64,000 nt of DNA from Pseudomonas sp. MYb118 (lineage in GTDB: Bacteria > Pseudomonadota > Gammaproteobacteria > Pseudomonadales > Pseudomonadaceae), in assembly GCF_040947875.1 (NCBI RefSeq), contig NZ_JBFRXN010000001.1, forward strand, positions 744,001-808,000, written 5' to 3'. The translations under genes and the position numbers were made by a program. The first letter of the stretch is position 1. The number at the start of each line of letters is the position of its first letter. The notes under the pieces were generated by a model. That model was not told the origin of the DNA, made no database searches, and saw only the letters and a program-made list of their open reading frames with translations. Of the stretch, positions 10,308 through 36,349 are shown one piece after another.

Positions 10308-10829
10308 TCATTTATTCATGCCGTCTTCGATTTCGATGCCTTGCGCTTGCATGGCCTTGATCAGCTCGGCGCGAGTGCCGGGCAGGTTGAGCATGGTTTC
10401 GGCGCGCAGGGCGGTGACTTCTTCGGCGGTGTAGGGCTGGTAATGCTCTGGCACGCTTTTGCCGGCCATGCCGCCTGGACGCATCAGCCAGTTGAGCAGG
10501 TCGGCCAGTTGCGCGTTGTTCAACGCCGATTGCGACATGCCGGGAACACGTACGAGGAACTCGCGCCCACCGGGGACTTTCAGAAAGTTGCCGACAAACC
10601 CGGCCATGCGTGGCGTGTCATTGGCGGGTGAGCCCATGCCGTTGCCCAGGTGGCAGCCGGCGCATTGCAACTGGTAGTTCACGCCAACGCTATAGCCTGC
10701 CTCGGCAATCGGTGTTTGCAGTTCTTCGTTGCCCGGTGCATGGCGCTGGTTCGGATTGGGAATGGCGCGTGCGTGGGCAAGTGGGGTGAGGAAAAGGCAG
10801 GCCAGGCCGAGGATTAACATGTGACGCAT
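10308..10829 (-). CDS. Periplasmic monohaem cytochrome c, last gene of the amine dehydrogenase operon
   Basis: 173 residues with a signal peptide (1-20, ending AHA) and one haem motif, CAGCH at residues 56-60. Several downstream Met residues could be the sixth ligand (for example in the GMSQSALNNAQ segment). It lies after the small-subunit gene, separated by a REP pair. The published aau cluster of Alcaligenes faecalis has the same order, aauBEDA followed by a small periplasmic monohaem cytochrome gene (orf-2), so I place it in the amine dehydrogenase electron-transfer chain. Mau clusters carry a different amicyanin or cytochrome set. The role is inferred from position. Confidence 0.75.
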   Translation of the reverse strand: MRHMLILGLACLFLTPLAHARAIPNPNQRHAPGNEELQTPIAEAGYSVGVNYQLQCAGCHLGNGMGSPANDTPRMAGFVGNFLKVPGGREFLVRVPGMSQSALNNAQLADLLNWLMRPGGMAGKSVPEHYQPYTAEEVTALRAETMLNLPGTRAELIKAMQAQGIEIEDGMNK

Positions 10830-10866
10830 GACAGACCCTTCTTGTTGTTATGACCGATCCCTGTCC

Positions 10867-10969
10867 CTGTAGGAGCGAGCTTGCTCGCGATGGTCGTCAG
10901 GACGCCGCTGAGTGTCAGGTATCCAGCGTCATCGTTAACGTCCATCGCGAGCAAGCTCGCTCCTACAGG
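10867..10969. repeat. REP pair
   Basis: A head-to-head pair of REP elements about 100 bases long, lying inside the amine dehydrogenase operon between the small-subunit and cytochrome genes. It may act as a partial terminator or mRNA stabiliser. Confidence 0.9.
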
Positions 10970-10996
10970 GGGCGGGGGGTGAGGTGTTACATCAAC

Positions 10997-11518
10997 TCAA
11001 ACAGCCACGCCGCGGATGATCGAAACGGTGCAGTGATAGATGTGCGATTTGGCGGCCAGGCACCAGTTCACATCGTTGTTGTTGAACGGGCGGTAGGCCG
11101 GTTCTTCACTGTCGTTACGGGTGCAGGCGCACTGGGCGCAGCTTTGCTTACCGCAGCAGTCGTTGTAGGAAATGATGTAGTCCTTGCCGTCCGCCGGGTT
11201 GCGACAGGTGCCGATCCAGGTCACTTGCGAGGCCTCGGTGCCCGGTGGGCAGGAGGTCACCGACCCGCCGCAGCAGCTGCACAGAAAGCCGTCGATGGAG
11301 CAGTAGCGCCAGTAGTCGCAACTGTTCGGATCACCGGGGTCGCCGGCTTTCGGGTCGGTGGCGGCCAGCGCCTTGCTGGTGCGATCCAGCGGCAGCAGCA
11401 GGGGCAGGGCGGCACCAGCCACCATCAGCGAGCCCATGCGCGACAGCAGTTTGCGGCGCGAAGTGGTGTCGGCAACACGGCGCGTCGAGCGCTCGAACAA
11501 CAGATCCAGCAGTTTCAT
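10997..11518 (-). CDS. aauA: Amine dehydrogenase small subunit with tryptophan tryptophylquinone precursor (AauA/MauA)
   Basis: 173 residues. The long N-terminal export signal carries SRRKLLSRMG (20-29), a twin-arginine-like motif, as in known MauA/AauA precursors. The mature part has 14 Cys, which form a dense disulfide network in this family, and two Trp, W101 and W152, placed as the two residues cross-linked and oxygenated to make the TTQ cofactor. It is the catalytic subunit: primary amine to aldehyde plus ammonia, in the periplasm. It is encoded after mauB-, mauE- and mauD-like genes. Assignment to aromatic rather than methylamine substrates rests on gene order, the absence of maturation genes in the window, and the adjacent aromatic pathway. 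Confidence 0.85.
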   Translation of the reverse strand: MKLLDLLFERSTRRVADTTSRRKLLSRMGSLMVAGAALPLLLPLDRTSKALAATDPKAGDPGDPNSCDYWRYCSIDGFLCSCCGGSVTSCPPGTEASQVTWIGTCRNPADGKDYIISYNDCCGKQSCAQCACTRNDSEEPAYRPFNNNDVNWCLAAKSHIYHCTVSIIRGVAV

Positions 11519-11536
11519 GAAAGTCTCCCTGCCTTA

Positions 11537-12163
11537 TCAGTGGCTATGGCCGTGGCTGTGGTCGTGGTTGTGCTCGTGTGGCTGAGCGTTGAGGTATTGC
11601 TGCAAGGTCGCGTGCTTCAGGTGTTCCACTTCGAACAGGCTGTCCAGGTGCTCGCGGGAATTGACCAGGCCCTTGGCGCGCAGGGTGCCGGCCTTGTCGA
11701 TCAGCGCCGCGTAAGGCAGCTTGCCGATCTGGTAGGTCATGCCCACTTCCGGGCCGACCACGTAGGTGGCGTCTTCCAGCTTGTGTTCGCGGATCAGCGC
11801 TTGCTGGGCGTCCATGTCGCCATCGCTGACGAACACCACGTCCAGGCTGCCGGCCTGTTCCTTGGCGATGGATTTGATCGCCGGCAGCAGCGACTTGCAG
11901 ATCGGGCAGGTCGGCGAAAGGAAGAACAGCAGTTGCGATTTTTCCCCGGCATAACCGAAGTTCACCGGGCGACCGTGACGGTCGGCGGCGGTGATTTGCG
12001 GTGCGGCTTCGTTGACGGCCACGCCTTTGTCGACCATCAGCGCGCCGGCTGGCGCCAGGCGACCGTGCAGTACACCAATCTGACGCACCAGGCCCATGAC
12101 GACGAACGCCAGGGCCACCAGCAGCACCCAGAGCAAAACGTTGGAAACGATCAAGCCTTCCAT
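11537..12163 (-). CDS. aauD: Amine dehydrogenase accessory thioredoxin-like protein (AauD/MauD)
   Basis: 208 residues. One N-terminal membrane anchor (about 5-27) precedes a periplasmic thioredoxin-fold domain with the redox pair C86-P-I-C89 and a cis-Pro at about 150 (GKLPYA). A His-rich tail (196-208) may bind metal. MauD is needed for correct disulfide formation in the Cys-rich small subunit and for its stability. It lies 18 bases before aauA and 5 bases after aauE, so the genes are tightly clustered. Confidence 0.88.
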   Translation of the reverse strand: MEGLIVSNVLLWVLLVALAFVVMGLVRQIGVLHGRLAPAGALMVDKGVAVNEAAPQITAADRHGRPVNFGYAGEKSQLLFFLSPTCPICKSLLPAIKSIAKEQAGSLDVVFVSDGDMDAQQALIREHKLEDATYVVGPEVGMTYQIGKLPYAALIDKAGTLRAKGLVNSREHLDSLFEVEHLKHATLQQYLNAQPHEHNHDHSHGHSH

Positions 12164-12168
12164 TTTGA

Positions 12169-12708
12169 TTACCTACCAATCAATTTGAGCAGAAGAGGGG
12201 AGTTCGCCAGCAAGCCATCGGCGGCGGCGTAGATCAGCAGCGCCACGGCGCTGGCAGCGAGGGTGACGAAACCGTCGAAAAAGCCCAGCTCGCGTGCCGT
12301 CGGCGTAACGCTGGCCAGCAACGCCAGGCCCACCAGTGCGCTGTTGCGCAGCAGCAGGACCGGCCGCAGCGGTTGCGCCTGGCCCGGGCCGGCACAGCCG
12401 CAGTCGATGTCGCGACGACCGCGCCAAAGGTTGATGCCGATGGCGGCGGCGTACAGCGCGATCAGCGCGCCGGCCGTCAACGCGGCATAGGCGCGGCACA
12501 CCGGCACCAGCAGCGCGAAGGCAATCGCCAGTTCGATCAACGGAATCGTGCGCGCGACCGGGCGAACCAGGGCGTCGGGCAGCAGTTGATAGTCCGCCAG
12601 TTGTTTGCGAAAGCGTGCCGGCGCGCGCAACTTGTGGGTCGCGGCGCTGGCCAGCAACACCGCAATGGCGATGGCGCTGGCGATGATCAGAATCGGGTCC
12701 AAGTGCAT
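12169..12708 (-). CDS. aauE: Amine dehydrogenase accessory membrane protein (AauE/MauE, DoxX-like)
   Basis: 179 residues with four or five membrane spans and a cytoplasm- or periplasm-facing Cys pair in DIDCGCAGP (C103, C105). It matches the MauE/DoxX-type redox membrane proteins, which work with MauD in transport, processing or disulfide formation of the small subunit. It is placed between aauB and aauD, 13 and 5 bases from them, the fixed order of mau and aau operons. No other function is suggested. Confidence 0.87.
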   Translation of the reverse strand: MHLDPILIIASAIAIAVLLASAATHKLRAPARFRKQLADYQLLPDALVRPVARTIPLIELAIAFALLVPVCRAYAALTAGALIALYAAAIGINLWRGRRDIDCGCAGPGQAQPLRPVLLLRNSALVGLALLASVTPTARELGFFDGFVTLAASAVALLIYAAADGLLANSPLLLKLIGR

Positions 12709-12721: not shown

Positions 12722-13873
12722 TTAGTAGCTCATGACCTGGGTCGCGGTTTTGGCGACCTTGGCCATGCTGCCGGTGAGCGTGTTGGTCTTGAGATCGAAA
12801 ATCTGCAAGCCGCCCTCGACGTCGGCGCCCAGCAGCAACGGTTTGTCGTCGCCGGTGGCTTGCATGCTCCACACCGGAACAGGCGCTTCCAGGGTGGCGA
12901 CTTTCTTCCCGGTCTTGAGATCGAACGCCCAGATCAGCGGGCTCGGGTCTTCCCACTTCATCGGTTCGTGAGCGTCGTGCATCAGCACGTACAGGCGATT
13001 GAGCTTCGGCGCCACGGCCATCAGCTGCCAGCCACCCGGGGCCCAACCGGCCTTCTTTTCCTCGTCGTTGGTCAGCGACCAGCTCGGCAGGATCTTCGGT
13101 GCTTCACCGCTGAAGTCCACGGCGCGCACGGTGCCGGTGGTCGTGGTGAAGTAGTAGGTGTCGCCGACGTTGACCGCGCGCTCCACCAGTTTTTCCGCAT
13201 TCGGGTCAAAGAACGGCGTGCGGCTGCGCGCGGTTTCCTGGCCCTGGTCGTTGAGCGTCACCACCTGCAGGCTGCCGTCGCCGCACAGCGAGGCGAAGCG
13301 GCGTTTGCCGATCGGATAGTTGAGCACGCAACCGGGGATCGAGATTTCGCTGGCCACGGCCTTGGCCTGGGTATCGACCACGGTGACCGAGGTCGACGGG
13401 GTGAAGTTGTAGACGTAGACGAAGCGGTCATCGCCGCTGGTCTTGAGGCCATAGCGCTGGGTCAGCGACTCGGCGCGCTTGTTCGGAATCAGCACTTCCC
13501 AGGCCGGCGACAGGGTCGAGCTGTCCCAGGCGGTCAGCACGTCGGTACGGGTACCGCGGGTACCCCGCGAGTACCAGATGTCGGCGCTGTAGAGGGTTTT
13601 CTGGTCGTGGCTCAAGGTCGAAGGTGCGGCGAAACCGGTCGGCACCATGCCGAGCACGCGTTTCTTGTCGGGATCGACCACGGTCACACGACCGGCCACG
13701 AAACTTTCGAATTCGACGTCGACAACAAAGGCCCGGTGGGCTTCCGGCGGGAAGGCCAAAACGGTCTGGCCGATGCCGGTGTCAGCGGGCAACTCCGCGC
13801 TGGCATTGTTCAAACCCAGTACCAGCAGGCTGAGACTCAGCGCTGACTGTACGGTGATCCTGGTGGCTCGCAT
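12722..13873 (-). CDS. aauB: Amine dehydrogenase large subunit (AauB/MauB)
   Basis: 383 residues: signal peptide 1-26 (ending ASA), then a seven-bladed beta-propeller. Blocks such as LGMVPTGF, TRGTRTDVL, CGDGSLQV and SLTNDEEKKAGWAPGG match the aromatic amine dehydrogenase large chain as I remember it from A. faecalis, better than methylamine dehydrogenase. It pairs with the TTQ small subunit as an alpha2beta2 periplasmic enzyme. It is the first gene of the operon, so the promoter should lie in the repeat-rich gap beyond 13873; I see no clear promoter or regulator site there. Likely substrates are tryptamine, phenylethylamine and tyramine. Confidence 0.85.
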   Translation of the reverse strand: MRATRITVQSALSLSLLVLGLNNASAELPADTGIGQTVLAFPPEAHRAFVVDVEFESFVAGRVTVVDPDKKRVLGMVPTGFAAPSTLSHDQKTLYSADIWYSRGTRGTRTDVLTAWDSSTLSPAWEVLIPNKRAESLTQRYGLKTSGDDRFVYVYNFTPSTSVTVVDTQAKAVASEISIPGCVLNYPIGKRRFASLCGDGSLQVVTLNDQGQETARSRTPFFDPNAEKLVERAVNVGDTYYFTTTTGTVRAVDFSGEAPKILPSWSLTNDEEKKAGWAPGGWQLMAVAPKLNRLYVLMHDAHEPMKWEDPSPLIWAFDLKTGKKVATLEAPVPVWSMQATGDDKPLLLGADVEGGLQIFDLKTNTLTGSMAKVAKTATQVMSY

Positions 13874-14169
13874 TAGGGGGAACTCCCTGAATTATTGTTC
13901 TCGCAAATCGCGGGTGCATGGCAGATTTTTGCAGTTCGATTCTGCCTTGGCCGGGGAGAGGGGGAATTGCTGTGGCTGCCAAGAGGTTGTTTGTCTGTGC
14001 CAGTCTTGATGAGCGGGGGGATTGGCCTGGAGTTTTGGGGGCGAGCCTGCTCGCGATGGCGTCTTTCTGGGTGTACATATCCATTTTTGCGGGTGCGGCC
14101 GCTTAGGGTTCCGCCCTTACGGCGACGTTTACCTGTAGGAGCGAGCTTGCTCGCGATGGCGGCCTGTCG

Positions 14170-14446
14170 GGTGTACATATCCGTTGTTGCGGCAACGGCC
14201 GCTTATGGTTCCGCTCTTACAGCGGGTGACTTTGGGGCCTACGCGGCCCGGCGCAAAGTCACCAAAACGCCCGGCCCCTGACGTACGGCCCTTCGCTACG
14301 CTCCGGGTTCCCTCGCTCCGGTCCTGCTCCGTGGGCCCGCCGCCATCGGCCATCCTTGGCCGAGGGCGGCTACCGCGGCATCCATGCCGCGGTAGCCCAC
14401 TACGCAGAACCTCCACTCGGCCTTCCGACGGGGCAATCTGCGGCGC
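14170..14446 (+). repeat. Left arm of a large inverted repeat
   Basis: About 277 bases, starting near GTGTACATATCC and ending near GGGGCAATCTGCGG. It matches the reverse complement of 14890-15160 over almost its full length, with small differences such as palindromic variation at the ACCGCGGCATCC segment. It contains internal short palindromes. It belongs to the class of long non-coding repeats found in P. fluorescens genomes. I see no open frame or transposase. Confidence 0.85.
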
Positions 14447-14474
14447 CTGTGGGATCGTGGCTCTGTTGCTGTTT

Positions 14475-14843
14475 CTGTGGGAGCGAGCCTGCTCGCGAAG
14501 GTCGTTAACGATGACGCGGGCCGTCTGGATGCCCGCGGTGCCTGGGCTACCATCGCGAGCAAGCTCGCTCCTACAGGGGGGCGTGCTCGGCTTTTGATCT
14601 TGATCTTCTGTGGGAGCGGGCTTGCTCGCGATGGTCGTCAACGATGACGTTGACTGTCTGACACCCAGCGGTGCCTGAATCACCATCGCGAGTAAACTCG
14701 CTCCTACAGGGGGCCGTGTTCCGCTTGTGATCTTGATCCTTTGTGGGAGCGAGCCTGCTCGCGATGGTCGTGAACGATGACGCGGGTTGCCTGGGTACCT
14801 GCGGAGTCTGGGCTACCATCGCGAGCAGGCTCGCTCCCACAGG
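14475..14843. repeat. Three REP pairs inside the large inverted repeat
   Basis: Head-to-head pairs at 14475-14577, 14608-14710 and 14742-14843, separated by near-identical linkers containing TTTTGATCTTGATC-like sequence. The repeated linker suggests tandem amplification of a REP-pair unit. They fill the loop between the two long inverted arms. Confidence 0.88.
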
Positions 14844-14889
14844 GGAAGGGTTTTGTGCTTTTGATCTTTAGCTTCTGGCCGAGAATGAC

Positions 14890-15160
14890 CAGGCGCCATA
14901 GATTGCCCCGTCGGAAGGCCGAGTGGAGGTTCTGCGCAGTGGGCAACCCGGCATGGATGCCGGGTTAGCCGCCCTCGGCCAAGGATGGCCGATGGCGGCG
15001 GGCCCACGGAGCAGGGCCGGAGCGAGGGAACCCGGAGCGTTAGCGAAGGGCCGTACGTCAGGGGCCAAGCGTTTTGGTGACTTTGGCGCCCCAAAGTCAC
15101 CCGCCGTAAGGGCGGAACCAAAAGCGGCCGTTACCGCAAAAATGGGTATGTACACCGGAA
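14890..15160 (-). repeat. Right arm of the large inverted repeat
   Basis: Reverse-complement copy of the arm at 14170-14446. It begins near GATTGCCCCGTCGGAAGGCC and ends near GGGTATGTACACC. The 440-base loop between the arms holds only REP pairs. Confidence 0.85.
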
Positions 15161-15162
15161 GG

Positions 15163-15192
15163 CCGCCATCGCGAGCAAGCTCGCTCCTACAG
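15163..15192 (-). repeat. REP singlet overlapping the kinase stop codon
   Basis: A single REP (CATCGCGAGCAAGCTCGCTC then CTACAG). Read on the minus strand, its CTGTAG end supplies the last Leu codon and the TAG stop of the PAS kinase gene. Confidence 0.85.
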
Positions 15193-16668
15193 ATTGGGGG
15201 CGATGGGGAGGGCGACGCTGAACACTGCGCCGCAAGGCTCGAGGTTCTGCGCCCAGATGTCCCCCCGGTGGCGGCCGATGATGTTTTTGCACAGGGCCAG
15301 GCCAATCCCGTTGCCGCTGACCTTGGACGAGAAGAAGCCGTCGAACAGTTTCTCCTGCGCCTCGGCCTGGATGCCGCGCCCACGGTCCTCGATGCGCAGT
15401 AGTGCCACCTCCTGTTCGCGGCTGGCCTGGATGCGCAGGACTCGGCGCTCGATGGGCAGGTCGCTCATTTCTTCGATGGCGTTGAAGGCCAGGTTGAGGA
15501 TGACCTGGCCGATCAGCACCTTCTCGCAACTGACCAGCAGCGGCGTCGCGCTGGGGATGATTTCGACCTGCACCTGGCTCGGTTCGGCGCGCAGGCTGAT
15601 GAAGTAGCGGGTCTCGCGCAGCAGTTCGTTGAGGTCGATCCGCTCTTCGCTCTGCTCCAGTTTCACCACGTAGTCGCGCACGCTCTTGATGATCACCGAG
15701 GCGTGCTCGATCTGCCGTACGGCGTTTTGCAGTCCCCAGCTCACGCCCTGTTCTACGGTGAGCTCCTTGCCCAGGCGAATCATTGCGCCCTCGATGAAGT
15801 TGCGGGTGGCGGCCAGCGGTTGGCTCAGTTCGTGGGCAATCGCCACGGCCATCTCGCCCATGGCGTTGTAGCGCGCCAGGTATTCGAGTTTCTGCTCGCT
15901 CAGGCGCCGTGCTTCCTCGGCGCGCACGTGTTCGGTGACGTCGCGAAACAGCAGCAGGTGGCCGACCAGGTCGTCTTCGATCTCGATGAAACGGCAGGTC
16001 GCCTGGTGCCAGCGCCATTCTCCATCGCGGCGCTGCACGTGGTACTGCACGCTGAACGGCGCATGCTCCGGGGTCTCATTGGCCAGTTGTTGCAGCAGGC
16101 GTTGGCGGGAGTCTTCGTCGCACCAGGACAGGAAGTTCTGCCCGGTCAGCGCAGGCCCTTCGCCCTGCAGCAACTGCGCGCCGGAGTCGCTGATGAAGCG
16201 GATGTCGCCCTCGGGGCTGAGCACCGCCACGCCTTCGGCCAGGTCCTGCATGAAGGCCTTGAGCCGGCTTTCGAAGCGCTTGAGGTCACGCTTGACCTTG
16301 TCCTCCCTGGAGATGTCGCGGAACTGCACCATCAGTACATCGCGGCCTTCCAGGTGCACCAGGGTCGCGACCGCCTCGGAGAGAATTTCCACCCCCTGCT
16401 TGGAGCGATAACACCACTCGATGGCGCGCTGGCCGGTGCGTGCGGCGCCTTCGAGCCAGCGCAGGCCGACCGAGCGCCGGTACTTGGGCGCATCGCGGGT
16501 CATGTCCGGGGCCTTGAGCGGCGTCAGTTCTTCCAGGGTGAAGCCCAGCGCGTCGAGGGCGGCGGTGTTGGCCCAGAGAATCTCTTTGCTGTGTGCGTCG
16601 TGAAGAATGATGCACAGCGGCATGGCTTCGATGAGGGTGAAGAAGTCGTTGGGTGTTGGCAGGTACAT
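15187..16668 (-). CDS. Cytoplasmic PAS-PAS sensor histidine kinase (FixL-like architecture)
   Basis: 493 residues with no membrane span. Two PAS domains (about 10-125 and 135-250) are followed by the HisKA box with phospho-acceptor H279 in AHELSQPL, an N-box (LNLAFNAIEEM), and a G box (DRGRGI ... GNGIGLALCKNII). It should sense a soluble or redox signal and phosphorylate a response regulator; the obvious partner is the FixJ-like protein at 25072. The two genes, both on the minus strand, bracket the plus-strand iacA-F-feaR block, so regulation of IAA catabolism is likely. Its stop codon lies inside a REP. A two-component system is known for some Burkholderiales iac clusters; the pairing here is inferred. 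Confidence 0.85.
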   Translation of the reverse strand: MYLPTPNDFFTLIEAMPLCIILHDAHSKEILWANTAALDALGFTLEELTPLKAPDMTRDAPKYRRSVGLRWLEGAARTGQRAIEWCYRSKQGVEILSEAVATLVHLEGRDVLMVQFRDISREDKVKRDLKRFESRLKAFMQDLAEGVAVLSPEGDIRFISDSGAQLLQGEGPALTGQNFLSWCDEDSRQRLLQQLANETPEHAPFSVQYHVQRRDGEWRWHQATCRFIEIEDDLVGHLLLFRDVTEHVRAEEARRLSEQKLEYLARYNAMGEMAVAIAHELSQPLAATRNFIEGAMIRLGKELTVEQGVSWGLQNAVRQIEHASVIIKSVRDYVVKLEQSEERIDLNELLRETRYFISLRAEPSQVQVEIIPSATPLLVSCEKVLIGQVILNLAFNAIEEMSDLPIERRVLRIQASREQEVALLRIEDRGRGIQAEAQEKLFDGFFSSKVSGNGIGLALCKNIIGRHRGDIWAQNLEPCGAVFSVALPIAPNL

Positions 16669-17000: not shown

Positions 17001-18152
17001 ATGCTGCGTTCAGCTGTCGCGGAGAAAGACCCTCTGCCAGGCGTTGATGAGAACACCGTCTTTGCGCAAGTGCTGGAAGAAGTACGCCAGCGGCGCGATG
17101 AGTTCGATGCGCTGTCCCATGTGCCACGGGACATGATCGAACGCTTCAAGCAGGTGGGCATCTACCGCGCCGCCACGCCGAAACGCTTCGGTGGCGACGC
17201 CCTGGCGCCGGCGCTGTTCCTGCGCATGATCGAGCGCATCGCCGAGGCCGACGGTTCTGCGGGCTGGGTCGCCAGTTTCGGCAGCGCCGGGGTCTACCTC
17301 GCGGCATTGCCGCCGGAAACCCTGGCTGAACTGTATGCCGACGGCCCGGACCTGGTGTTCGCCGGCGGCCTGTTCCCGCTGCAACCGGCCGAAGCGGTCG
17401 AGGGTGGTTACCAGGTCAACGGCACCTGGAAATTCGCCAGTGGCTGCAAGGGCGCCGACCTGCTCGGCGTCGGCATCGGCGCCGCCGGTGGCAAGCCGCG
17501 CACCGCGGTGCTGCGCCCGGATCAGGTGGACATCATCGAGAACTGGGACGTGGTCGGCCTCAAGGGCACCGGCAGCCATGACCTGCGCGTCACAGACAAG
17601 CGCGTCGACGAGCGCTGGACGTTCATCCGCGGCGGCGCTGCCACCATCGACGAACCGCTGTTCCGCTACCCGTCGATTGCCTACGCCGCCCAGGTGCTGG
17701 CGGTGGTCAACCTCGGCCTGGCCCGCGCCGCCCTCGACGAAGTCAGCCGCATGGCCGCCGGCAGCGGCATCACCGGTGCGCCAAAAATGGCCGACCGCGC
17801 CTACGTACGCATCGAGATCGCCAAGGCCGAAGCCAGCCTCGCCGCCGCCCGCGGCTTCTTCTACAACGCCACCGAGCAGGTGTGGAATTCGATCCTGGCA
17901 GGCTTACCGGTCACCGCCGAACAGACCAGCCTGCTGCGCCTGTCCGCCATTCACGTGTCCCAGGCCGGTGCGGCCGTGGTGCAGAGCGCCTACAGCCTGG
18001 CCGGGACCACCGCCATTTACCTGCACCATCCGCTGCAGCGTTACCTGCGCGATTCGATGGTGGTCACCCAGCACGCCTTTCTCAGTGAAGGCCTGTACGA
18101 CGGCGCCGGTTCCGTGCTGCTCGGCGTATCGCCATTCCCTGGCTACATCTGA
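17001..18152 (+). CDS. iacA: Indole-3-acetate monooxygenase, acyl-CoA-dehydrogenase-like flavoprotein (IacA)
   Basis: 383 residues with the acyl-CoA dehydrogenase / HpaB-HsaA group D flavin monooxygenase fold: an N-terminal helical part (VPRDMIERFKQVGIYRAATPKRFGG), a middle beta domain (GTWKFASGC, VGLKGTGSHD) and C-terminal helices (AIYLHHPLQRYLRD). IacA uses reduced flavin, supplied by IacG, to hydroxylate IAA at the indole ring as the first step of its degradation. It is the first gene of a close-packed set iacA-B-I-H-C-D-E whose content matches the known iac clusters of P. putida 1290 and Burkholderiales. The gene set as a whole, rather than this protein alone, makes the assignment firm. 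Confidence 0.88.
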   Translation: MLRSAVAEKDPLPGVDENTVFAQVLEEVRQRRDEFDALSHVPRDMIERFKQVGIYRAATPKRFGGDALAPALFLRMIERIAEADGSAGWVASFGSAGVYLAALPPETLAELYADGPDLVFAGGLFPLQPAEAVEGGYQVNGTWKFASGCKGADLLGVGIGAAGGKPRTAVLRPDQVDIIENWDVVGLKGTGSHDLRVTDKRVDERWTFIRGGAATIDEPLFRYPSIAYAAQVLAVVNLGLARAALDEVSRMAAGSGITGAPKMADRAYVRIEIAKAEASLAAARGFFYNATEQVWNSILAGLPVTAEQTSLLRLSAIHVSQAGAAVVQSAYSLAGTTAIYLHHPLQRYLRDSMVVTQHAFLSEGLYDGAGSVLLGVSPFPGYI

Positions 18153-28961: not shown

Positions 28962-30276
28962 GGTCGGGTACCTCGATGTCGGTGGCGCTGTGCGCACGAG
29001 CGCGCAGCAGGTAGTTGAAAATGCACAGGACGAAGGTCACGCCCAGGGCGATCAGCATCATCAGGTCGAGCTGGAAGCAGGCGGCGATCACCACCAGCGT
29101 CAGGGCCAGGCCCAGCCAGGCAATCAAGGTGCCGCCGACCAGACGGAACGGGCGCGCCAGATGCGGCTGGCTGCGCTTGATCCGCAGGTAGGCGGCGAAA
29201 ATCAGCAGGTAGCAGACGTTGAGCAGCAGCACCACGGCGAGCATCACCGTGGCCGGGTCGACGGTGGACAGCGGCAGGCCGATGGCGCCGATCAGCAGCA
29301 GGGCCGGGTAGGGCGTACCGCGCTTGCCGGTCTTGCCCAGCCACTGCGGGAACAGGCCATCGCGGGCCATGGCGAACAACTGCCGGGAGGCGGCGTAGAC
29401 CAGCGAGAAGAACGTGGCGATCAAGCCGAACACCGCGCCGCAGCCGATTACCTTGGCCAGCCACGAGCCGTCGCCGTAGGCATTGGTGCGGGTCATGGCG
29501 GCGTACAGCGGATCACCCGCCGAGCCCACCGCTTCGACGCCACCGGCGCCCGGTGCGCAGACCAGCACCACCAGCGCCGTCACCAGCAGGGTAGCGACCG
29601 CCGCGAGAATCCCCCGTGGCATGTTGCGCCCCGGGTTGCTGGCCTCCTCGGCAGCCGAGCCGGTTTGCTCGACGGTGATGAACAGCCAGATGGCGAAGGG
29701 TACGCAGGCGAAGATCCCGCCCAGGCTCAGGGCCGGGGTGCTGGTCGCCGCCGGCATCGCCAGCAGGCTGGCCAGCTCGACATGCGGCGCCATGGCCACG
29801 CCGAAGGTCAGCAGGGCCGCGACGGCGATGACTCCGGCGATCATGGTCAGGCCCATGGCTTCACCGACGCCACGGATGTGGATGCCGATGATCACCGCGA
29901 ACAGCGCGCCTTTGACCGCCCAGCCGCCGAGGCCGAACATCGACTCGGTGTAGGCGCAGATGAAGGTCGCCGCCGCGCCAGTGCCGATGGTCAGTGCCAG
30001 GGCACAGGCGACGCCGACCAGGTAACCCACGAACGGCCCGAACGCGCTCTGCGCATAGACGAACACGCCGCCGGCACTGGGCAGCGCCGTCGACAGCTCG
30101 GCCACGCACAACGCCAGGCCACCGCACAACAGGGCCATCAACAAGGTGGCGACCAGCATGTTCAGCCAGCCGCCGGCCATCAGTCCGAAATTCCAGCCGG
30201 AAAACTGCCCGGCCACCACCAACGCAATACCCAGGCCAGCGATCTTTGGCCAGCCCAACGCACTTTTCTTAAGCAC
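28954..30276 (-). CDS. APC family permease, ethanolamine-permease-like
   Basis: 440 residues, about 12 membrane spans, GTG start after GGGAGA. The N-terminal block GLGIALVVAGQFSGWNFGL followed by VAELSTALPSAGGVFVYAQSAFGP recalls the EAT (ethanolamine) branch of the APC superfamily, where 'SGWNFGL' replaces the usual amino acid permease motif. The gene overlaps the phospho-lyase gene by eight bases, so permease, lyase and kinase form one operon. A role in importing ethanolamine or another amino alcohol fits best; an amine or amino acid substrate remains possible given the neighbouring amine catabolism. Confidence 0.78.
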   Translation of the reverse strand: MLKKSALGWPKIAGLGIALVVAGQFSGWNFGLMAGGWLNMLVATLLMALLCGGLALCVAELSTALPSAGGVFVYAQSAFGPFVGYLVGVACALALTIGTGAAATFICAYTESMFGLGGWAVKGALFAVIIGIHIRGVGEAMGLTMIAGVIAVAALLTFGVAMAPHVELASLLAMPAATSTPALSLGGIFACVPFAIWLFITVEQTGSAAEEASNPGRNMPRGILAAVATLLVTALVVLVCAPGAGGVEAVGSAGDPLYAAMTRTNAYGDGSWLAKVIGCGAVFGLIATFFSLVYAASRQLFAMARDGLFPQWLGKTGKRGTPYPALLLIGAIGLPLSTVDPATVMLAVVLLLNVCYLLIFAAYLRIKRSQPHLARPFRLVGGTLIAWLGLALTLVVIAACFQLDLMMLIALGVTFVLCIFNYLLRARAHSATDIEVPDHA

Positions 30277-30429
30277 AGCAGTCTCCCGCGACCCGAAGGC
30301 CGTTTTATTGTTTTTGGGGTTTTTGGAAGGGATTGGCCTTGATACTACGCGGGGCGGGGGGAAGGGCTTGTTTGTGGGTGTGCCAGGTGGTTGGTTGTGG
30401 GTGCCAGATTGGGGACCGCGTTATCGTTC

Positions 30430-30529: not shown

Positions 30530-32656
30530 TCAGATCCGAAAACTCCCCACCAACTCACGCAACCGCCCCGCCTCACGCTCAAGCTCGGTGCACGCGCGCA
30601 AGGTCGATTGCAGGTTTTCCAGCCCACGCTGGTTGAGGCTGTTGATCTCGGTGATGTCGACATTCAACGCCTCCACCACCGAAGTCTGCTCTTCGGTGGC
30701 GGCGGCAACCGACTGGTTGACGTTGTCGATCTCGCCGATGCGTTGGGTCACGCTGCCCAGGCGGGTGCCGGCGAGGTTGGCGATGGTGACGCTTTCCTCG
30801 CTGTGCTGCTGGCTCTCGGTCATGGTGCTGACCGACTCGCGCGCGCCCACCTGCAAGGCCTCGATCATCTGCTGGATCTGCGCCGCCGACGTCTGCGTGC
30901 GGCCGGCCAGGCTGCGCACCTCATCGGCGACCACGGCAAAGCCGCGGCCGGCTTCCCCGGCACGCGCCGCTTCGATCGCGGCGTTGAGCGCCAGCAGGTT
31001 GGTCTGCTGGGAGATGCCCTTGATCACTTCGAGGATCTGGCCGATGTCCACGGTCTTGGTGTTCAGCACTTCGATGTTGGCGCAGGAGGTGCTGATTTTC
31101 GCCGACAGTGCATTCATTACCTCGATGGTGCGTTCCACCACCTGGCGCCCGTCCTCGGCCTGCTGCCGGGCGGCGGAGGCTTGCTGCGAAGCGTCGCTGG
31201 CGTTATGGGCGATTTCCTGGGCAGCGGCGCCCAGTTGGTTGATGGCGGCGGCGACGCTGTTGGTGCGGGTCGATTGTTCATCGACATCGCTGAGCGACGA
31301 GTTGGACGCCAGCAGCACGCGCTTGGCCCCTTCATTGACCCCCAGCGCCGCCGAAGACACCTCGCGGATGGAGTGATGAATGCGCTCGACGAAGCGGTTG
31401 AACGCGGTGGCCAGTTGACCGATTTCGTCGCGTGACTGCACCGACAGGCGCCGGGTCAGGTCGCCTTCGCCCAGGGAAATGTCTTCCATGACCCGCGTCA
31501 GCACTTGCAGCGGCCGGGTGATGCGATAGGCCGCGTACCAGATCAGCACCAGCCCGAGCAGGGCCGCGCCGCCGCCGAGCAGCAGCGACAGCGCGGTGCT
31601 CTGCACGCCCCGTGCATCCAGGTCCTGTTGCAGACGGGTGACCGGCGCCAGCAGCACGTCCTGCGGCACGCCGACCAGCACGCCCCATGGGGCCGAACCG
31701 GCAATCGGGGTCAGCGGTTCGAGCACTTCGATCTGTTGCCGGTCGGCGAACACCTGCGGCTGGCCCTGGTGCAAGGCGGCCAGGACGGGCGCGTTGTCGA
31801 GCGGCTGGCCGAGCTGGCTGACATCCTGGCTGTTGGCGGAAATCACCCCGCGTGGGCTGACGATGCTGATCCGGCCGCGGCCGTCGAACAACTTGCCGGC
31901 GCTGGCTTCGCTGTTTTGTTGCAGGGCGGCGAGGTTGATGTCCAGGCCGACCACGGCGATGACGCGGCCGTTGTCCAGCAGCGGAAAGGCGATGCTGGTC
32001 ACCAGTTTGCGGCTGCCGGACGCCTCGTCGAAGTAGGGCTCCAGCACGCAGGCCTGGCGGCTGTCCCGGGCACAGGTGTAGAAGGCGTTGTAGGGCGCGC
32101 CGCTGGGGCCGGGTTCGGTGTTGGCCAGCAGGCCTTCGTCGCCGATCACCGCCTGCAATTCACCCGGTTTGCTTTGCACCCAGTACAACGAGAAACGGCC
32201 TTTTTCGTTGCTGCCCAGTTCCGCCTGGTCGGCGAAACCGGCGTCGGCACCGTCCAGGGCGTCAGGCTCGAAAATGACATAAAGCCCGAGCAGGTCGGGC
32301 TTGTCTTTCAGGGCCTGGTTGAGCTGGGTGTTGAGCTCCTGGCGCAGTTGCTGGCGGGTCAAGGTGCCCTGGTGCTGCAGTTGCCGCAGGTACAACAGAT
32401 AACGTGACAGGCCCTGGCCGAATTCGTGGGTCTGGATGAAGGTGCGCTGCACATGCATCGCCTGCACCTTGCCCAGTGCCTGCATGTGTTCGCGGGCGGC
32501 GTCGGCGAGCATGTCACTGCTGGCCTGGGCCACTTGCTGGCTGCTCTGGTGGCTCTGGTACAGCGACAGGCCCATCAGCAAACCCACCACCAGCAGCAGG
32601 CAAAGGCCGGCGAGCAGGGCGATCTTGCTCTGGATCGTGAGGAATTTGTTGTGCAT
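30530..32656 (-). CDS. Methyl-accepting chemotaxis protein with dCache-type sensor
   Basis: 708 residues. Membrane span 1 is at about 12-35, a ~320-residue periplasmic dCache-like sensing domain follows ([26 protein letters not shown] [28 protein letters not shown]), then membrane span 2, a HAMP domain ([25 protein letters not shown]) and the cytoplasmic signalling hairpin with [21 protein letters not shown]. It directs chemotaxis through CheA/CheW. It has the same orientation as the permease operon, separated by REPs. Location in an amine/IAA catabolic island suggests one of those compounds, or ethanolamine, is its attractant; this is inference from position. Confidence 0.88.
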
Positions 32657-32829: not shown

Positions 32830-34152
32830 TCAGAAGGTGGTGGCAAAAATCAGCTGGCTATACAGGTTCTTGTCGTTGTTGCCCAACTGGGTGCCACCCT
32901 GGTCGGCGCTCTTGTCCGGCTGGAACAGGCCCACCAGCGGCATGATGCTCAGGTGGTCGTTGACGTGCCATTCGGCGTACAGGTCCACTTCGTGGCCATC
33001 GGTATTGCCGAGGTTGCGGTCGATGGTGTCGAAGTTGAAGTACATCGCGCCGACATTGAGGTTTTCCAGGGGCGAGACGGTGAACTTGACCTGCTGGATG
33101 CGCGAGTTGCTGTTGAACGGGCCGGCGTAGTTGCCCGCCACTTCACCCTGGAACCAGGTGCCGAAACCACGGCTGAAACCGTAGAACAGCGTGTCGTAGT
33201 TTTCCGAGAAGCGGCTGTAGCGGTAGCCGACATACGGCGACCAGGCCACGTCGGAGAAGGTCCAGCCGGCTTCCAGGTACCAGGCGTCTTCAGTGCCGGT
33301 GTGCGGTTTGTCCTGCTTGGCGTATTCACCGGAGAGGAACAGGTCCTTGACCCCGGCGTTACCGGTGGCGCGCAGGCTGTAGGTCTTCATGCCGTCGCGT
33401 TCGAGCTGGATCGGCGAGGCGTATTGCTCGTCGATGTCGGTGGTGTCGATGTACGTCAGGCCGACGGTGGCGGCTTCGGACACGTGCTCCAGGGTGCCGA
33501 CGTACATTTCGGTCATGGCCTGGGCGTGGTTGTTGGACTTGAGGTACATCACGTCGCCGCGCCAGCCTTCCTTGCCGCCGATGCGCAGCACGGCGGTTTC
33601 ATCGAACGCCTTGCGCGCGGCCAGCCAGTAGGCGCCGCCACGGTTGAACTCGCCGTCGGCCAGGCCCTTGCCCATGTTCAGGGCGTCGCCGTCGATCAGG
33701 AAGCCATCGCCGACCACGATGTTCTGGCGACCGAAGGACAGGTCGATGCCGTCTTCGCCGAGCACGTCGAACAGTTTGCCCGAACGCCAGCCGAGGTAGG
33801 CGTCTTCGAACTTGGTGGTGCGCTCGGAACCGTCGCTGAAGCCTGCGGCATCGCCGTCACCCCAGGTGCCGGAGCTGAGCAGGTTCGCCGCGCCATAGGC
33901 AGTGCCCGCGCCAGCCAGGCCCTTGTCGAAGCTCAGGCCGTACTTGATGTAGCCCTCGCGCCACGACGAAGAACCTTCATTGAGGCGGCCGGACAGCGCG
34001 TAGTTTTCCTGGCTGTGGAACACGCCGAACACGGCTTCCAGCGTGGCGTTCAGGTGGCTGTCATCATCGGCGTAGAGTTCGTAGGCGCCGGCATGGCCAG
34101 CACTGATCATCAGCGCAAGGGTGGAGAGACGAAGCAAGGGCGACTTGAGCAT
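32830..34152 (-). CDS. Outer-membrane porin (beta-barrel), predicted aromatic-amine regulon member
   Basis: 440 residues from ATG 34150-34152; the open frame continues upstream to 34815, but that part overlaps the divergent cytochrome gene and is not coding. Signal peptide 1-23 (ends AGA/AYE). The mature protein is dominated by alternating amphipathic strands and ends in ATTF, the terminal Phe signature for outer-membrane insertion. The size and alternating pattern resemble alginate-export-like or OprD-sized porins, but I cannot assign a named family. It is divergent from cytochrome c-feaB, and a FeaR-like site points towards it. It probably admits the amine or arylacetic substrate. Confidence 0.78.
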   Translation of the reverse strand: MLKSPLLRLSTLALMISAGHAGAYELYADDDSHLNATLEAVFGVFHSQENYALSGRLNEGSSSWREGYIKYGLSFDKGLAGAGTAYGAANLLSSGTWGDGDAAGFSDGSERTTKFEDAYLGWRSGKLFDVLGEDGIDLSFGRQNIVVGDGFLIDGDALNMGKGLADGEFNRGGAYWLAARKAFDETAVLRIGGKEGWRGDVMYLKSNNHAQAMTEMYVGTLEHVSEAATVGLTYIDTTDIDEQYASPIQLERDGMKTYSLRATGNAGVKDLFLSGEYAKQDKPHTGTEDAWYLEAGWTFSDVAWSPYVGYRYSRFSENYDTLFYGFSRGFGTWFQGEVAGNYAGPFNSNSRIQQVKFTVSPLENLNVGAMYFNFDTIDRNLGNTDGHEVDLYAEWHVNDHLSIMPLVGLFQPDKSADQGGTQLGNNDKNLYSQLIFATTF

Positions 34153-34228
34153 GGTGTGGCATCCGTTCTTGTTCTTGAGCGCAGGTTTGCGGTCTTTTTC
34201 GATACTAAGTCGCGGAACTTTTCCAGCC

Positions 34229-34244
34229 TTTTGTGTGGTTGCCA
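34229..34244 (-). promoter_or_regulatory. FeaR-like site (reverse orientation, toward porin)
   Basis: Minus-strand TGGCA-N8-AAA. The E. coli FeaR site was reported as TGNCA-N8-AAA (from memory). It lies 77 bases upstream of the porin start. Confidence 0.5.
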
Positions 34245-34277
34245 AAGAGTTGGCTGTGCTTGCCAAACTTGCCGTTT

Positions 34278-34293
34278 TGGCAGCCCCGGCAAA
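34278..34293 (+). promoter_or_regulatory. FeaR-like site 1 (toward cytochrome c-feaB)
   Basis: TGGCA, eight bases, AAA. Together with the next site it forms a direct repeat spaced 21 bp (two helical turns), as AraC-family activators commonly bind. Confidence 0.55.
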
Positions 34294-34298
34294 GCAAC

Positions 34299-34314
34299 TG
34301 GCACGCAGCACAAA
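34299..34314 (+). promoter_or_regulatory. FeaR-like site 2 (toward cytochrome c-feaB)
   Basis: TGGCA, eight bases, AAA, 21 bp after site 1 and 115 bases before the cytochrome start. The promoter should lie between this site and 34429; no canonical -35/-10 is obvious. Confidence 0.55.
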
Positions 34315-34428
34315 TCCCGCACCGCGCTGACCACCGACAATCGCTGTCAACCCTGCCGATGCCCATTGCGTCGGCGCTTCCGTGTTGGCGCTCGCCTGAC
34401 GAGCGCGGTTTTTCAAGGTCGCTTTCCT

Positions 34429-34818
34429 ATGTTCACCTCGCTGCGTCTGTCTTTTATCGGTCTGCTCTCGTTCACCGTGGCGCACACCGCGCTGGCCGCC
34501 GAGTGCAGCCCCGACCAGGGCCGTGGCGCCCAGGTCTTCGCCAATGAGTGCGGGGTGTGCCACTCGGTCACCCAGGGCGCGACCGGGATGATGGGGCCGA
34601 ACCTGGCCGGGGTGGTGGGGCGCAAGTCGGGGTCGCTGGCAGGCTTCAACTATTCCCAGGCCATGCGCACCAAGGACGTGACCTGGCAGGCCGAGAACAT
34701 CGCGCAACTGATCACCCAGCCCCAGGCCTATGTGCCGGGAACCTACATGCCTTACATGGGCCTGGCCTCGGCGGACGATCGCCAGGCGGTCACGTGTTTC
34801 CTCAAAGAACAACACTGA
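34429..34818 (+). CDS. Periplasmic class I cytochrome c
   Basis: 129 residues from ATG 34429 (AAGG upstream). A longer frame starting far upstream is an antisense artefact through the porin gene. Signal peptide 1-24 (ends ALAA), haem motif CGVCH at 41-45, and a late Met in YMPYMGL as likely axial ligand: a small mitochondrial-type cytochrome c. It lies 40 bases before feaB, under two FeaR-like sites. It could accept electrons from the periplasmic amine dehydrogenase and pass them to an oxidase. Confidence 0.85.
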   Translation: MFTSLRLSFIGLLSFTVAHTALAAECSPDQGRGAQVFANECGVCHSVTQGATGMMGPNLAGVVGRKSGSLAGFNYSQAMRTKDVTWQAENIAQLITQPQAYVPGTYMPYMGLASADDRQAVTCFLKEQH

Positions 34819-34858
34819 TCAGCCGGTTCCAGGCTGACATTTGAATGAAAGGTGATTT

Positions 34859-36349
34859 ATGAGCAACGTTGAAATCCTGCCGCAGGTTGCTGCATTCCTG
34901 GCCCGTCGCCACGGCTGCTTCATCGATGGCCAGTGGGTGTTCGCCGAAGGGCAGAGCATTGCCGTGGTCAACCCGGCCACCGGGCAAACCCTGTGCGAGA
35001 CCATGGATGCACCGCTGGAAGTGGTTGAGCAGGCCGTGCAGTCGTCGCACCAGGCGTTCAAGACGGGCGTCTGGTCGGGCCTGCGCCCGGCGGATCGCGA
35101 GCGCATCCTGCTCAACTTCACCCGCCTGGTGGAAGAGCACGCCGAGGAACTGGCGCAACTGGAAACCCTGAGCCAGGGCAAGTCGATCAACATGGCCCGC
35201 GCCCTGGATGTCAACGCCACGGTCGAGTTCATGCGCTACATGTCCGGCTGGGCGACCAAGATCGAAGGGCAGACCTTCGACGTGTCGATCCCGCTGCCAC
35301 CCGGCGCCAAGTTCACCGCGTTCACCAAGCGTGAACCGGTCGGTGTGGTCGTCGGGATCGTGCCGTGGAACTTCCCGCTGCTGATCGCCGCGTGGAAGTT
35401 GATGCCCGCACTGGCCACCGGTTGCACGGTGATCATCAAGCCGGCCATGGAAACCCCGCTGACCGCCATGCGCCTGGCCGAACTGGCCCTGGAAGCGGGT
35501 ATTCCGGCCGGTGTGTTCAACGTGGTCACCGGTGGCGGCGCCTCGGTAGGTGGCGTGCTGACCGCGCACCCGCTGGTAAGCAAGGTGTCGTTCACCGGCT
35601 CCACCGCCGTGGGCAAGAGCGTCGGTGTGGCGTGCATGGCCAACATGACCCGGTTCTCCCTGGAACTGGGCGGCAAGAACCCGATGATCGTGCTGGCCGA
35701 TGCCGACATCGAGAAAGCGGTGCAGGGCGCGATTCTCGGCGGACTGTTGAACAACGGCCAGGTGTGCGCCGCCGCCTCGCGCTTCTACGTGCACCGTTCG
35801 ATCCACGACCAGTTCGTCGAAGCCCTGGCGGCCGCGGTCTCGGCCATGCCGATCGGCGCCGGCATGAACTGCGAGGCGGCGATCAACCCGCTGGTCTCGC
35901 GCAAGCAGCAGCAGGCCGTGCTCAAGCACATCGAACTGGCTCGCCAGGAAGGTGCGCGCGTGGTGGCCGGTGGCGAGCTGCTGGACGGCGACGGTTTCTT
36001 CGTCCAGCCGACCATCCTGGCCGACATCGACCACGGCATGACCGTGGCCCGCGAAGAGGTGTTCGGTCCGGTGCTGGGCGTGATGCCGTTCGATGACGAA
36101 GACGCGGTGATCGCCCTGGCCAACGACAACCGCTACGGCCTGGCGGCCAGCCTGTGGACCAACGACCTGGGCAAGGCGATGAACCTGGTGCCGCGCATCG
36201 AGGCCGGCACCGTGTGGGTCAACGCCCACGTGTTGCTCGACCCGGCGATGCCGTTTGGCGGGGTCAAGCAGTCAGGCATGGGGCGCGAGTTCGGCCGTGC
36301 GGTGATCGAGGCTTACACCGAGCTGAAATCGGTGTGCATCGCCCACTGA
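34859..36349 (+). CDS. feaB: Phenylacetaldehyde dehydrogenase-type aldehyde dehydrogenase (FeaB)
   Basis: 496 residues, full-length ALDH with catalytic C303 (NNGQVCAAASRF), E269 (LELGGK), N171 (PWNFP) and K194. Similarity to E. coli FeaB is high as remembered: HG..IDGQW, NPATGQ, ETLSQGKSI, DVSIPLPPGAKFTAFTKREPVGVV, GGKNP, AGTVWVN.H.L.D...PFGG.KQSG.GREFG and the end TELKSVC. It oxidises arylacetaldehydes (phenyl-, hydroxyphenyl-, probably indole-3-acetaldehyde) to the acids. AAAGG precedes the ATG. It would link the amine dehydrogenase to iac. It ends one base before the convergent MscS gene. Confidence 0.83.
   Translation: MSNVEILPQVAAFLARRHGCFIDGQWVFAEGQSIAVVNPATGQTLCETMDAPLEVVEQAVQSSHQAFKTGVWSGLRPADRERILLNFTRLVEEHAEELAQLETLSQGKSINMARALDVNATVEFMRYMSGWATKIEGQTFDVSIPLPPGAKFTAFTKREPVGVVVGIVPWNFPLLIAAWKLMPALATGCTVIIKPAMETPLTAMRLAELALEAGIPAGVFNVVTGGGASVGGVLTAHPLVSKVSFTGSTAVGKSVGVACMANMTRFSLELGGKNPMIVLADADIEKAVQGAILGGLLNNGQVCAAASRFYVHRSIHDQFVEALAAAVSAMPIGAGMNCEAAINPLVSRKQQQAVLKHIELARQEGARVVAGGELLDGDGFFVQPTILADIDHGMTVAREEVFGPVLGVMPFDDEDAVIALANDNRYGLAASLWTNDLGKAMNLVPRIEAGTVWVNAHVLLDPAMPFGGVKQSGMGREFGRAVIEAYTELKSVCIAH

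Follow-up and report, generated by a model that had tools for sequence, protein, structure and literature searches.

Which pathway is encoded by the 26-kb island at positions 10308-36349 of the window examined here, and is it one pathway at all? The window, by which we mean the whole stretch of 64,000 nucleotides that was analysed, corresponds to C1:744001-808000 of the 6.58-Mb genome of Pseudomonas sp. MYb118, which consists of four contigs. An earlier note on this DNA proposed that the island encodes a chain from the plant amine tryptamine through indole-3-acetate to catechol, with a kinase, a phospho-lyase and a permease in its middle as a possible separate pathway. We are fairly confident that the island is a FeaR-controlled aromatic-amine module and a complete iac (indole-3-acetate catabolism) cluster spliced together. 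Judging from the genes present, the tryptamine-to-catechol route is likely real, yet it appears to be one branch of a wider funnel.

The island combines an aromatic-amine module with a complete iac cluster

The gene content behind the earlier proposal is real, as profile scores and open frames agree on an aau operon, a complete iac set (A, B, I, H, C, D, E, F and G, all nine frames open), FeaR, a FeaB-type dehydrogenase and a permease-lyase-kinase operon, all within 26 kb. A porin-like gene, two c-type cytochromes and a chemoreceptor are also located in the island, and a two-component pair flanks iac. The suggested chain from amine dehydrogenase through FeaB to the Iac enzymes is likewise consistent with the genes, as far as sequence can tell. 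A catechol 1,2-dioxygenase gene (catA) scores above cut-off elsewhere in the genome (C4:772432), and paaA, detected by a PaaA family search, also lies outside the island.

The TTQ enzyme resembles aromatic amine dehydrogenase

The aau operon, which encodes a tryptophan tryptophylquinone (TTQ) enzyme, reads aauB, aauE, aauD, aauA and orfX on the minus strand. OrfX has a single CxxCH motif and accompanies aauA in 78 of the 80 named loci that were found via AauB (76 from Pseudomonas, three from Alloalcanivorax and one from Stutzerimonas). When the PDB was searched by sequence, the heavy chain AauB matched aromatic amine dehydrogenase (AADH) with 169.5 bits, as compared to 136.4 for the best methylamine dehydrogenase. 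The light chain AauA matched AADH with 167.2 bits and methylamine dehydrogenase 3c75 with 167.0, other methylamine dehydrogenases reaching 133 at most. AauA is identical to the Alcaligenes faecalis AADH light chain at 65 of 118 positions, and it keeps W109, W160, Asp84, Asp128, Asn156 and Thr172 of that protein (unchanged in all aligned copies that reach the site, 34-35 of 35 rows); we take W109 and W160 to be the TTQ tryptophan pair and Asp128 to be the catalytic aspartate. By eye, AauA carries a twin-arginine stretch (SRRKLLSRM) and the N-terminus of AauB is signal-like, in line with the idea, already put forward in the earlier note, that oxidation takes place first and in the periplasm. On plasmids, AauB has relatives in only seven records, at 33-38% identity.

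Might the TTQ enzyme nevertheless be a methylamine dehydrogenase, and the module one for methylamine? The corresponding profiles, TIGR02658 and TIGR02659, do match (171.1 and 179.3 bits), the light chain of one methylamine dehydrogenase scores almost as high as that of AADH, and “methylamine” is the published term for genes of the Pseudomonas putida 1290 island (PMC6624763). However, both profiles are missed at their cut-offs (454.45 and 196.85), the heavy chain clearly ranks AADH first, no MauG is found above cut-off in the genome, and the enzyme is surrounded by FeaR, FeaB and aryl pathways. The light chain alone leaves the matter undecided, but taken together these points led us to discard the methylamine identity, which we regard as very improbable, in favor of a probable aromatic amine dehydrogenase.

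The amine genes co-occur with both iac and paa

A genus set of 398 genomes (own included) was searched with AauB, IacA and the PaaA family. Genomes were counted as aau-positive when AauB matched at no less than 58% identity; matches at 35-40% were dropped, and 11 genomes with only those were counted as aau-negative. IacA counts comprise all matches with E of at most 1e-60, including G187 and G334, where no iacB, iacC or iacH was seen, and the partial G031 and G388. Locus reading covered 36 of the other 45 aau-positive genomes (their aau loci) and 31 of the 39 genomes that are iac-positive and aau-negative.

The aau genes are present in 46 of the 398 genomes, and the co-occurrence check in Pseudomonas that the earlier note had suggested, and whose failure it had named as a refutation, gave a result far above chance: iac is found in 43 of the 46 aau-positive genomes, as compared to 39 of the 352 aau-negative ones (odds ratio 115). 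PaaA scores above cut-off in 42/46 versus 60/352, and none of the 46 aau-positive genomes lacks both iac and paa. The aau-iac and aau-paa associations each persist within strata of the other, with iac in 39 of 42 aau-positive and 9 of 60 aau-negative genomes when paa is present, and in 4/4 and 30/292, respectively, when it is absent. These tests treat relatives as independent, and the p-values are a guide only. A second set comprised 37 aau-positive genomes from 38 named loci, chosen mostly because iac does not stand beside aau, with at least five genomes shared with the genus set; IacA was found in 30 and PaaA in 36 of them. The amine module is thus tied to paa about as tightly as to iac, which suggests that it takes in arylethylamines in general and has two exits or more.

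On one hand, the same counts might be explained by a system for phenylethylamine and tyramine that supplies paa and further routes, with iac being merely co-located plant-compound genes and tryptamine not a physiological substrate. The frequency of paaA in both sets speaks for it, as does the location of paaA no more than 20 kb from aauB in 10 of the 42 genomes positive for both. On the other hand, four aau-positive genomes have iac and no paaA above cut-off, the iac association survives among paa-positive genomes, and the joining of aau to iac takes several different forms. We therefore find this explanation unlikely and prefer a funnel in which both exits are used.

aau and iac are joined in different arrangements

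In 30 of the 46 aau-positive genomes the distance from aauB to iacA is 25 kb or less. In the clade of the window, iac stands between aauB and the remaining amine genes, and feaR between iacF and the response regulator gene. In P. citronellolis and P. delhiensis (L209, L215, L216), the histidine kinase gene and iac come after aauB, with no feaR ahead of the response regulator gene, although the L215 stretch stops before that point. A porin gene separates aau from iac in P. marincola (G042, L214), iac is on the opposite side of aau in P. schmalbachii (L208), and in P. putida 1290 (G244) and G264 an iac cluster of the 1290 type is followed by porin, cytochrome, feaR, aau and feaB. In G113, G247 and G368, feaB and iacH are separated by other genes over about 9-13 kb, and P. 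migulae (G210) has an island without iacA-F that keeps the histidine kinase, the response regulator and iacG, with an iac set of the other type elsewhere. The two iac types known among the loci are about 54% alike and stand far apart on the IacA tree, where the label “linked” needs five changes, all forced by well-supported branches; the linked groups occupy separate places on the AauB tree as well. This scatter points to repeated joining of aau and iac, and losses could account for part of it.

One such neighbourhood is already visible in the literature, as an island of about 30 kb around iac in P. putida 1290 is described as carrying methylamine, phenylacetaldehyde and opine-use genes (PMC6624763). 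The link between aau/Fea genes and iac, of which the earlier note knew no example, is to that extent not new, but it stands there under other names. In the 40 kb of this genome that we read, aau and a FeaB-type gene are located beside iac (AauA 80%, AauB 61% and the FeaB-type protein 47% identical to those of the window), and the “methylamine” and “phenylacetaldehyde” genes would, on our reading, be these. Among the literature matches listed, judged by titles and abstract openings, none links an aromatic amine dehydrogenase with iac, which is no proof of absence.

Some loci of other composition were also seen. Pseudomonas composti LY1 has two separate aau loci (L207, L228) in one genome. In Pseudomonas sp. 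R5(2019) (L198), a histidine kinase and a response regulator of the iac type adjoin aau in a stretch with no iac genes, and an IacA of the other type (53%) is located elsewhere in the genome. In G187 and G334 (L096, L095), an IacA-like protein (about 60%) is encoded with iacG- and iacF-like genes and an aldehyde dehydrogenase, without iacB, iacC or iacH within the 19 kb read; perhaps this is another indole-type pathway.

A predicted fixed-spacing operator precedes the amine genes

The pattern TGNCA-N16-TGNCA was found five times in the window, as compared to 1.69 expected. As 5 of 100 shuffles reach this count, the number alone is weak and the positions of the sites matter: one match (13780-13805) is internal to aauB, and the others precede the aau operon, the permease, the porin and the cytochrome-feaB pair. 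The repeat was first recognised in the window, and other genomes and E. coli serve as its tests. Sites were counted up to 420 bases upstream of a gene start, where the background is 0.06 per 430 bases. In the 36 aau loci read in other genomes of the genus, an operator precedes aauB in 35/36, the porin in 25/26, the cytochrome in 23/23 and the permease in 7/7 cases, feaB itself in 8/30 and feaR in 3/32. In the same loci it was never found upstream of iacA (0/21), iacC (0/22), iacG (0/22), the histidine kinase (0/17), the response regulator (0/17) or the chemoreceptor (0/17). When spacers of 8-29 were scanned, 16 fitted 90 of the 92 porin, cytochrome, aauB and permease regions, and the runner-up, 12, fitted 24. 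The 80 named loci, which partly overlap with these, have the operator before aauB in 80/80, the porin in 16/20, the cytochrome in 9/9 and iacA in 0/39 cases. In the feaR-feaB-tynA stretch of E. coli K-12, with 0.14 matches expected, there are two, located upstream of feaB and of tynA, respectively.

A fuller consensus, drawn from the window's own sites and searched by exact matching, has three matches in this genome, all in the island (aauB, permease, porin). Among 36 other genomes it gave 24 sites in 11 of 18 aau-positive ones and none in 18 aau-negative ones, and the reversed pattern gave zero. Of 9 aau-positive genomes with previously unread loci, 8 carry such a site, and many of the sites are at a distance of 104-129 bases to aauB or of about 2.7-2.9 kb to the kinase, the latter being the expected place of the permease promoter. 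Four sites with one or two mismatches elsewhere in the window's genome were dismissed as chance, since the reversed control also gave four; the sole one-mismatch site among them (C3:991813) is inside a likely coding frame.

The first motif considered, TGNCA-N8-AAA, reportedly comes from work on E. coli FeaR. It is enriched before porin, cytochrome and aauB (61 of 85 regions; 0 of 599 permuted patterns equal this, and the best, an overlapping one, reaches 50) and is present in both E. coli promoters, of feaB and tynA. It is absent from the window's own aauB promoter, and it was superseded by the direct-repeat form after its one-mismatch sites had exposed a 21-base repeat.

As the operator stands before the amine genes and never before iac or two-component genes, two regulons seem to meet here, the FeaR amine module and a separately regulated iac. 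From the placement of the sites, FeaR most likely runs the former and not the latter, presumably by binding this operator. A single regulon that includes iac found no support, as no operator precedes iacA, iacG or either two-component gene. The histidine kinase accompanies window-type iacA in 17/17 genus loci and 39/39 named loci (the sets overlap), and, together with the FixJ-like regulator, it probably fills the role of iacS and iacR, which are reported for Caballeronia glathei (PMC7225977). According to the same report, C. glathei IacA/IacE cells left tryptamine unoxidised (PMC7225977), so that deamination would need to precede iac.

The permease-lyase-kinase operon as a probable second entry

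The kinase, lyase and permease genes are adjacent on one strand and share the FeaR-type operator, so the idea of a separate pathway in the middle of the island did not hold; on sequence grounds, this operon belongs to the amine module. A search with the kinase gave matches in 26 of the 398 genus genomes, 17 of them at 76% identity or more and the other nine at no more than 49%. All of the 17 are positive for aau, iac and paa (the chance for aau is about 6e-18 if independent). Some of these kinases are about 26-63 kb away from aauB or are located on a different contig. In the G002 draft the kinase contig also has iacF, feaR, the response regulator and iacG, which indicates that this is the same island in fragments. 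All seven aau loci with the kinase, and six further close copies, have permease, lyase and kinase side by side, with the operator before the permease in every case.

Several related operons were found next to aryl pathways. In G027 the operon adjoins paaZ (TIGR02278, 974.8 bits, cut-off 562.8), and in G129, which is without aau, the genes for a short-chain dehydrogenase and a FeaB-like enzyme (StyD, 550.7 bits, below cut-off) come after a diverged lyase-kinase pair, with one operator match directly before that of the FeaB-like enzyme. Four of 74 matching records of annotated plasmids were opened. The operon leads into paaX-paaABCDE on a Mesorhizobium AR07 plasmid and comes after an aldehyde dehydrogenase and a tyramine oxidase on a Phyllobacterium zundukense plasmid; its relative is near an AraC gene and aromatic-ring genes on a Sphingobium TomTYG74 plasmid, and near aminotransferase-fold and AraC genes, with neither paa nor amine oxidase, on a Pseudomonas MPC6 plasmid. 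In the order at large, a relative occurs in 13 of 293 genomes (own included); in the 11 other loci read, each over about 4 kb at most, the lyase is alongside in nine and two end near the relative.

What might this operon do? Elimination by a phospho-lyase is known chemistry for ethanolamine phosphate, and the same step on an aryl-ethanolamine phosphate would yield an arylacetaldehyde usable by FeaB. We propose an aryl substrate because the lyase is tied to the FeaR operator and to aryl-amine and phenylacetate genes; its sequence context suggests that the operon probably turns beta-hydroxy arylethylamines into the same aldehydes as the amine dehydrogenase does. We lean, if only slightly, towards a second arylacetaldehyde entry in which phenylethanolamine, octopamine or synephrine-like amines are taken up, receive a phosphate group at the benzylic hydroxyl and are cleaved by the pyridoxal-phosphate-dependent lyase into arylacetaldehyde, ammonia and phosphate, so that a FeaR-run funnel has two entries and two exits (paa and iac). 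To our knowledge, such an entry via kinase and phospho-lyase is undescribed, and among the literature matches listed none describes an arylethanolamine kinase or phospho-lyase by title or abstract opening, which again does not prove absence. An ordinary ethanolamine route to acetaldehyde, acquired by chance, would account for the resemblance of the permease to ethanolamine permease (below cut-off) and of the lyase to phospho-lyases 5g4i and 6tor. It is hardly expected, though, that all 17 genomes with the closer kinase would then fall among the 46 aau-positive ones, that the operator would precede the permease in all 13 operons, or that related operons would stand beside paaZ, paaXABCDE, tyramine oxidase or a FeaB-like enzyme, and we consider this route improbable as compared to the aryl-aminoalcohol one.

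How the module may work and what weighs against it

From gene identity, co-occurrence, linkage and the shared operator, all of which the analysis shows, we infer the substrates, electron flow, FeaR binding and regulator signals of the following scheme. The porin would let arylethylamines into the periplasm, where AauAB would deaminate them to arylacetaldehydes, with the c-type cytochromes OrfX and/or c550-like protein as electron acceptors. The aldehyde would enter the cytoplasm and be oxidised by FeaB to the arylacetate. The permease-lyase-kinase operon might supply the same aldehydes intracellularly from beta-hydroxylated amines, by phosphorylation of the hydroxyl and subsequent elimination of phosphate and ammonia. 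The iac cluster, under its own histidine kinase and response regulator, would degrade indole-3-acetate to catechol; tryptamine would therefore exit via iac, and phenylethylamine via the paa genes elsewhere in the genome. By switching both entries, FeaR would allow one aldehyde dehydrogenase to collect amines with and without the hydroxyl.

Several observations weigh against this scheme. AauB is identical to the A. faecalis AADH heavy chain at only 93 of 289 positions, and the heavy-chain pocket position L100 is Phe in the window, as in 28 of 37 aligned copies. The light-chain residue F169 is Tyr in all aligned copies covering the site, as in methylamine dehydrogenase 3c75. The best MauG match in the genome (L069) obtains 198.8 of 443.85 bits; as TTQ must form, the light chain would have to mature via another route. 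Related genomes inflate all counts, iacA is missing in 3 of 46 aau-positive genus genomes (one of them 78% complete) and in 7 of 37 of the second set, and Stutzerimonas stutzeri 24a75, from the latter, has neither IacA nor PaaA. The stretches read in G300, G274 and G276 show no porin or feaB, and 7 of 18 aau-positive genomes are without an exact match to the fuller consensus, the looser form being present where loci were read. Finally, the amine module is linked to paa no less strongly than to iac, so that tryptamine may be a secondary substrate and phenylethylamine the main one.

Features of the island and neighbouring observations

Table 1. Genes and predicted operator sites of the island, in window positions
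Feature	Position	Strand	Evidence
OrfX, secreted monohaem c-type protein (CAGCH), last aau operon gene	10308-10829	-	Pfam cytochrome c 20.0 bits, cut-off 21.3
AauA, TTQ light chain of AADH, twin-arginine signal	10997-11518	-	
AauD, MauD-like maturation protein	11537-12163	-	TIGR02661 211.4 bits, cut-off 188.6
AauE, MauE-like membrane maturation protein	12169-12708	-	PF07291 102.3 bits, cut-off 27
AauB, heavy chain of AADH	12722-13873	-	PF06433; best structure match AADH 2h3x
FeaR-type operator (predicted), aau operon	13977-14002	.	TGNCA-N16-TGNCA
PAS histidine kinase, probable iac sensor, IacS-like	15187-16668	-	
IacA	17001-18152	+	55% to P. putida 1290 (G244) copy
IacB	18176-18547	+	56% to G244 copy
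IacI, SnoaL-like	18551-19021	+	
IacH amidase	19018-20139	+	
IacC, Rieske dioxygenase large subunit	20184-21467	+	
IacD, dioxygenase small subunit	21443-21958	+	
IacE, short-chain dehydrogenase	21969-22709	+	
IacF, dioxygenase reductase	22884-23831	+	
FeaR, AraC-type regulator, proposed amine-module activator	23978-24901	+	NCBIfam equivalog NF007243 360.9 bits, cut-off 199
FixJ-like response regulator, proposed histidine kinase partner	25072-25713	-	
IacG, flavin reductase	25956-26468	+	
APH-fold small-molecule kinase, proposed aryl-aminoalcohol kinase	26649-27671	-	
Class-III-aminotransferase-fold O-phosphate phospho-lyase	27681-28997	-	best structure match 5g4i phospholyase, 468.9 bits
APC permease, ethanolamine-permease-like	28954-30276	-	ethanolamine permease TIGR00908 336.7 bits, cut-off 381.75
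FeaR-type operator (predicted), permease-lyase-kinase operon	30381-30406	.	TGNCA-N16-TGNCA
Methyl-accepting chemotaxis protein (mcp), Cache-type sensor	30530-32656	-	
Outer-membrane beta-barrel protein, porin-like	32830-34152	-	Pfam Alginate_exp 19.3 bits, cut-off 25.2
FeaR-type operator (predicted), porin	34240-34265	.	TGNCA-N16-TGNCA
FeaR-type operator (predicted), cytochrome c and feaB	34278-34303	.	TGNCA-N16-TGNCA
c550-like cytochrome, possible electron acceptor	34429-34818	+	PF00034 37.4 bits, cut-off 21.3
FeaB-type arylacetaldehyde dehydrogenase	34859-36349	+	best structure match 4o5h phenylacetaldehyde dehydrogenase

For the FeaB-type enzyme, the best NCBIfam model listed is the phenylacetaldehyde dehydrogenase StyD (660.9 bits, below the cut-off of 850). 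No Pfam family scores above cut-off for the porin-like protein. Its AlphaFold model (11 relatives, mean pLDDT, the predicted local confidence, 63) consists of many strands after a signal helix, and the alginate exporter AlgE and OmpC/OmpF-type porins rank first in Foldseek (template modelling score 0.45-0.58), so that the label “porin-like” seems fair for the predicted fold. A plus-strand open reading frame of 621 amino acids (32953-34818) was rejected as a single gene, being mostly antisense to the barrel gene; only its end part is real, the cytochrome.

Two FeaR paralogues per island, 54-55% and 81-87% identical to the window's FeaR, were seen in G260, G338 and G151; they may respond to different aldehydes. 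In G045, G307 and G384 (L112/L136, L114, L143), porin and feaR stand beside iac without aau, in G384 together with feaB, and these are possible remnants of a lost amine module. The orfX-aauA gap of the window (10859-10900) holds a palindromic REP-like (repetitive extragenic palindrome) repeat of about 40 bases; a 593-base query containing it gave 117 matches in the genome, all except the window's own being restricted to the repeat part. Many repeats and inverted repeats were seen by eye between aauB and the histidine kinase gene (13900-15186), a gap that is far shorter in relatives such as G107.

Significance and comparison with known systems

Plants contain both tryptamine and auxin, and amines of the octopamine type are known from plants as well as animals. 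A cell consuming both the auxin precursor and the hormone could shift auxin levels around roots and leaves. If the second entry is real, hydroxylated amines would reach the arylacetaldehyde through it, whereas the amine dehydrogenase alone would send them to the wrong, mandelate-type acid. The analysis gives a testable regulon with a fixed-spacing operator, offers an alternative reading of the “methylamine” genes in the well-known auxin-eating strain P. putida 1290, and proposes a role for operons annotated just as aminotransferases or phosphotransferases on Mesorhizobium and Phyllobacterium plasmids.

The aau cluster of A. faecalis has the same aauBEDA succession followed by a monohaem c-type cytochrome gene, with no mauG known nearby; here, in contrast, it is joined to FeaR, porin, FeaB, the permease-lyase-kinase operon and iac. 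Phospho-lyase 5g4i, of the ethanolamine-phosphate phospho-lyase type, is the nearest solved structure to the window lyase, which differs in its connection to FeaR via the operator and in its association with genes for aryl amines and phenylacetate. The P. putida 1290 island likewise has iac beside aau, feaR, porin, cytochrome and a FeaB-type gene, but its Iac proteins are 41-63% identical to those of the window, the gene order differs, and a MarR-type regulator (PMC11676955) stands in place of the histidine kinase and FixJ-like regulator. The FeaR/FeaB/TynA regulon of E. coli K-12, where paaZ adjoins tynA, shares with the window a FeaR above the family cut-off and the same operator before feaB and before the gene of the amine-oxidising enzyme. 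It differs in using the copper amine oxidase TynA, and in the window the operator also fronts porin, cytochrome and the permease-lyase-kinase operon. The island is thus made of known parts in a new assembly, a FeaR-type regulon where a TTQ dehydrogenase replaces TynA and to which auxin catabolism appears to have docked more than once.

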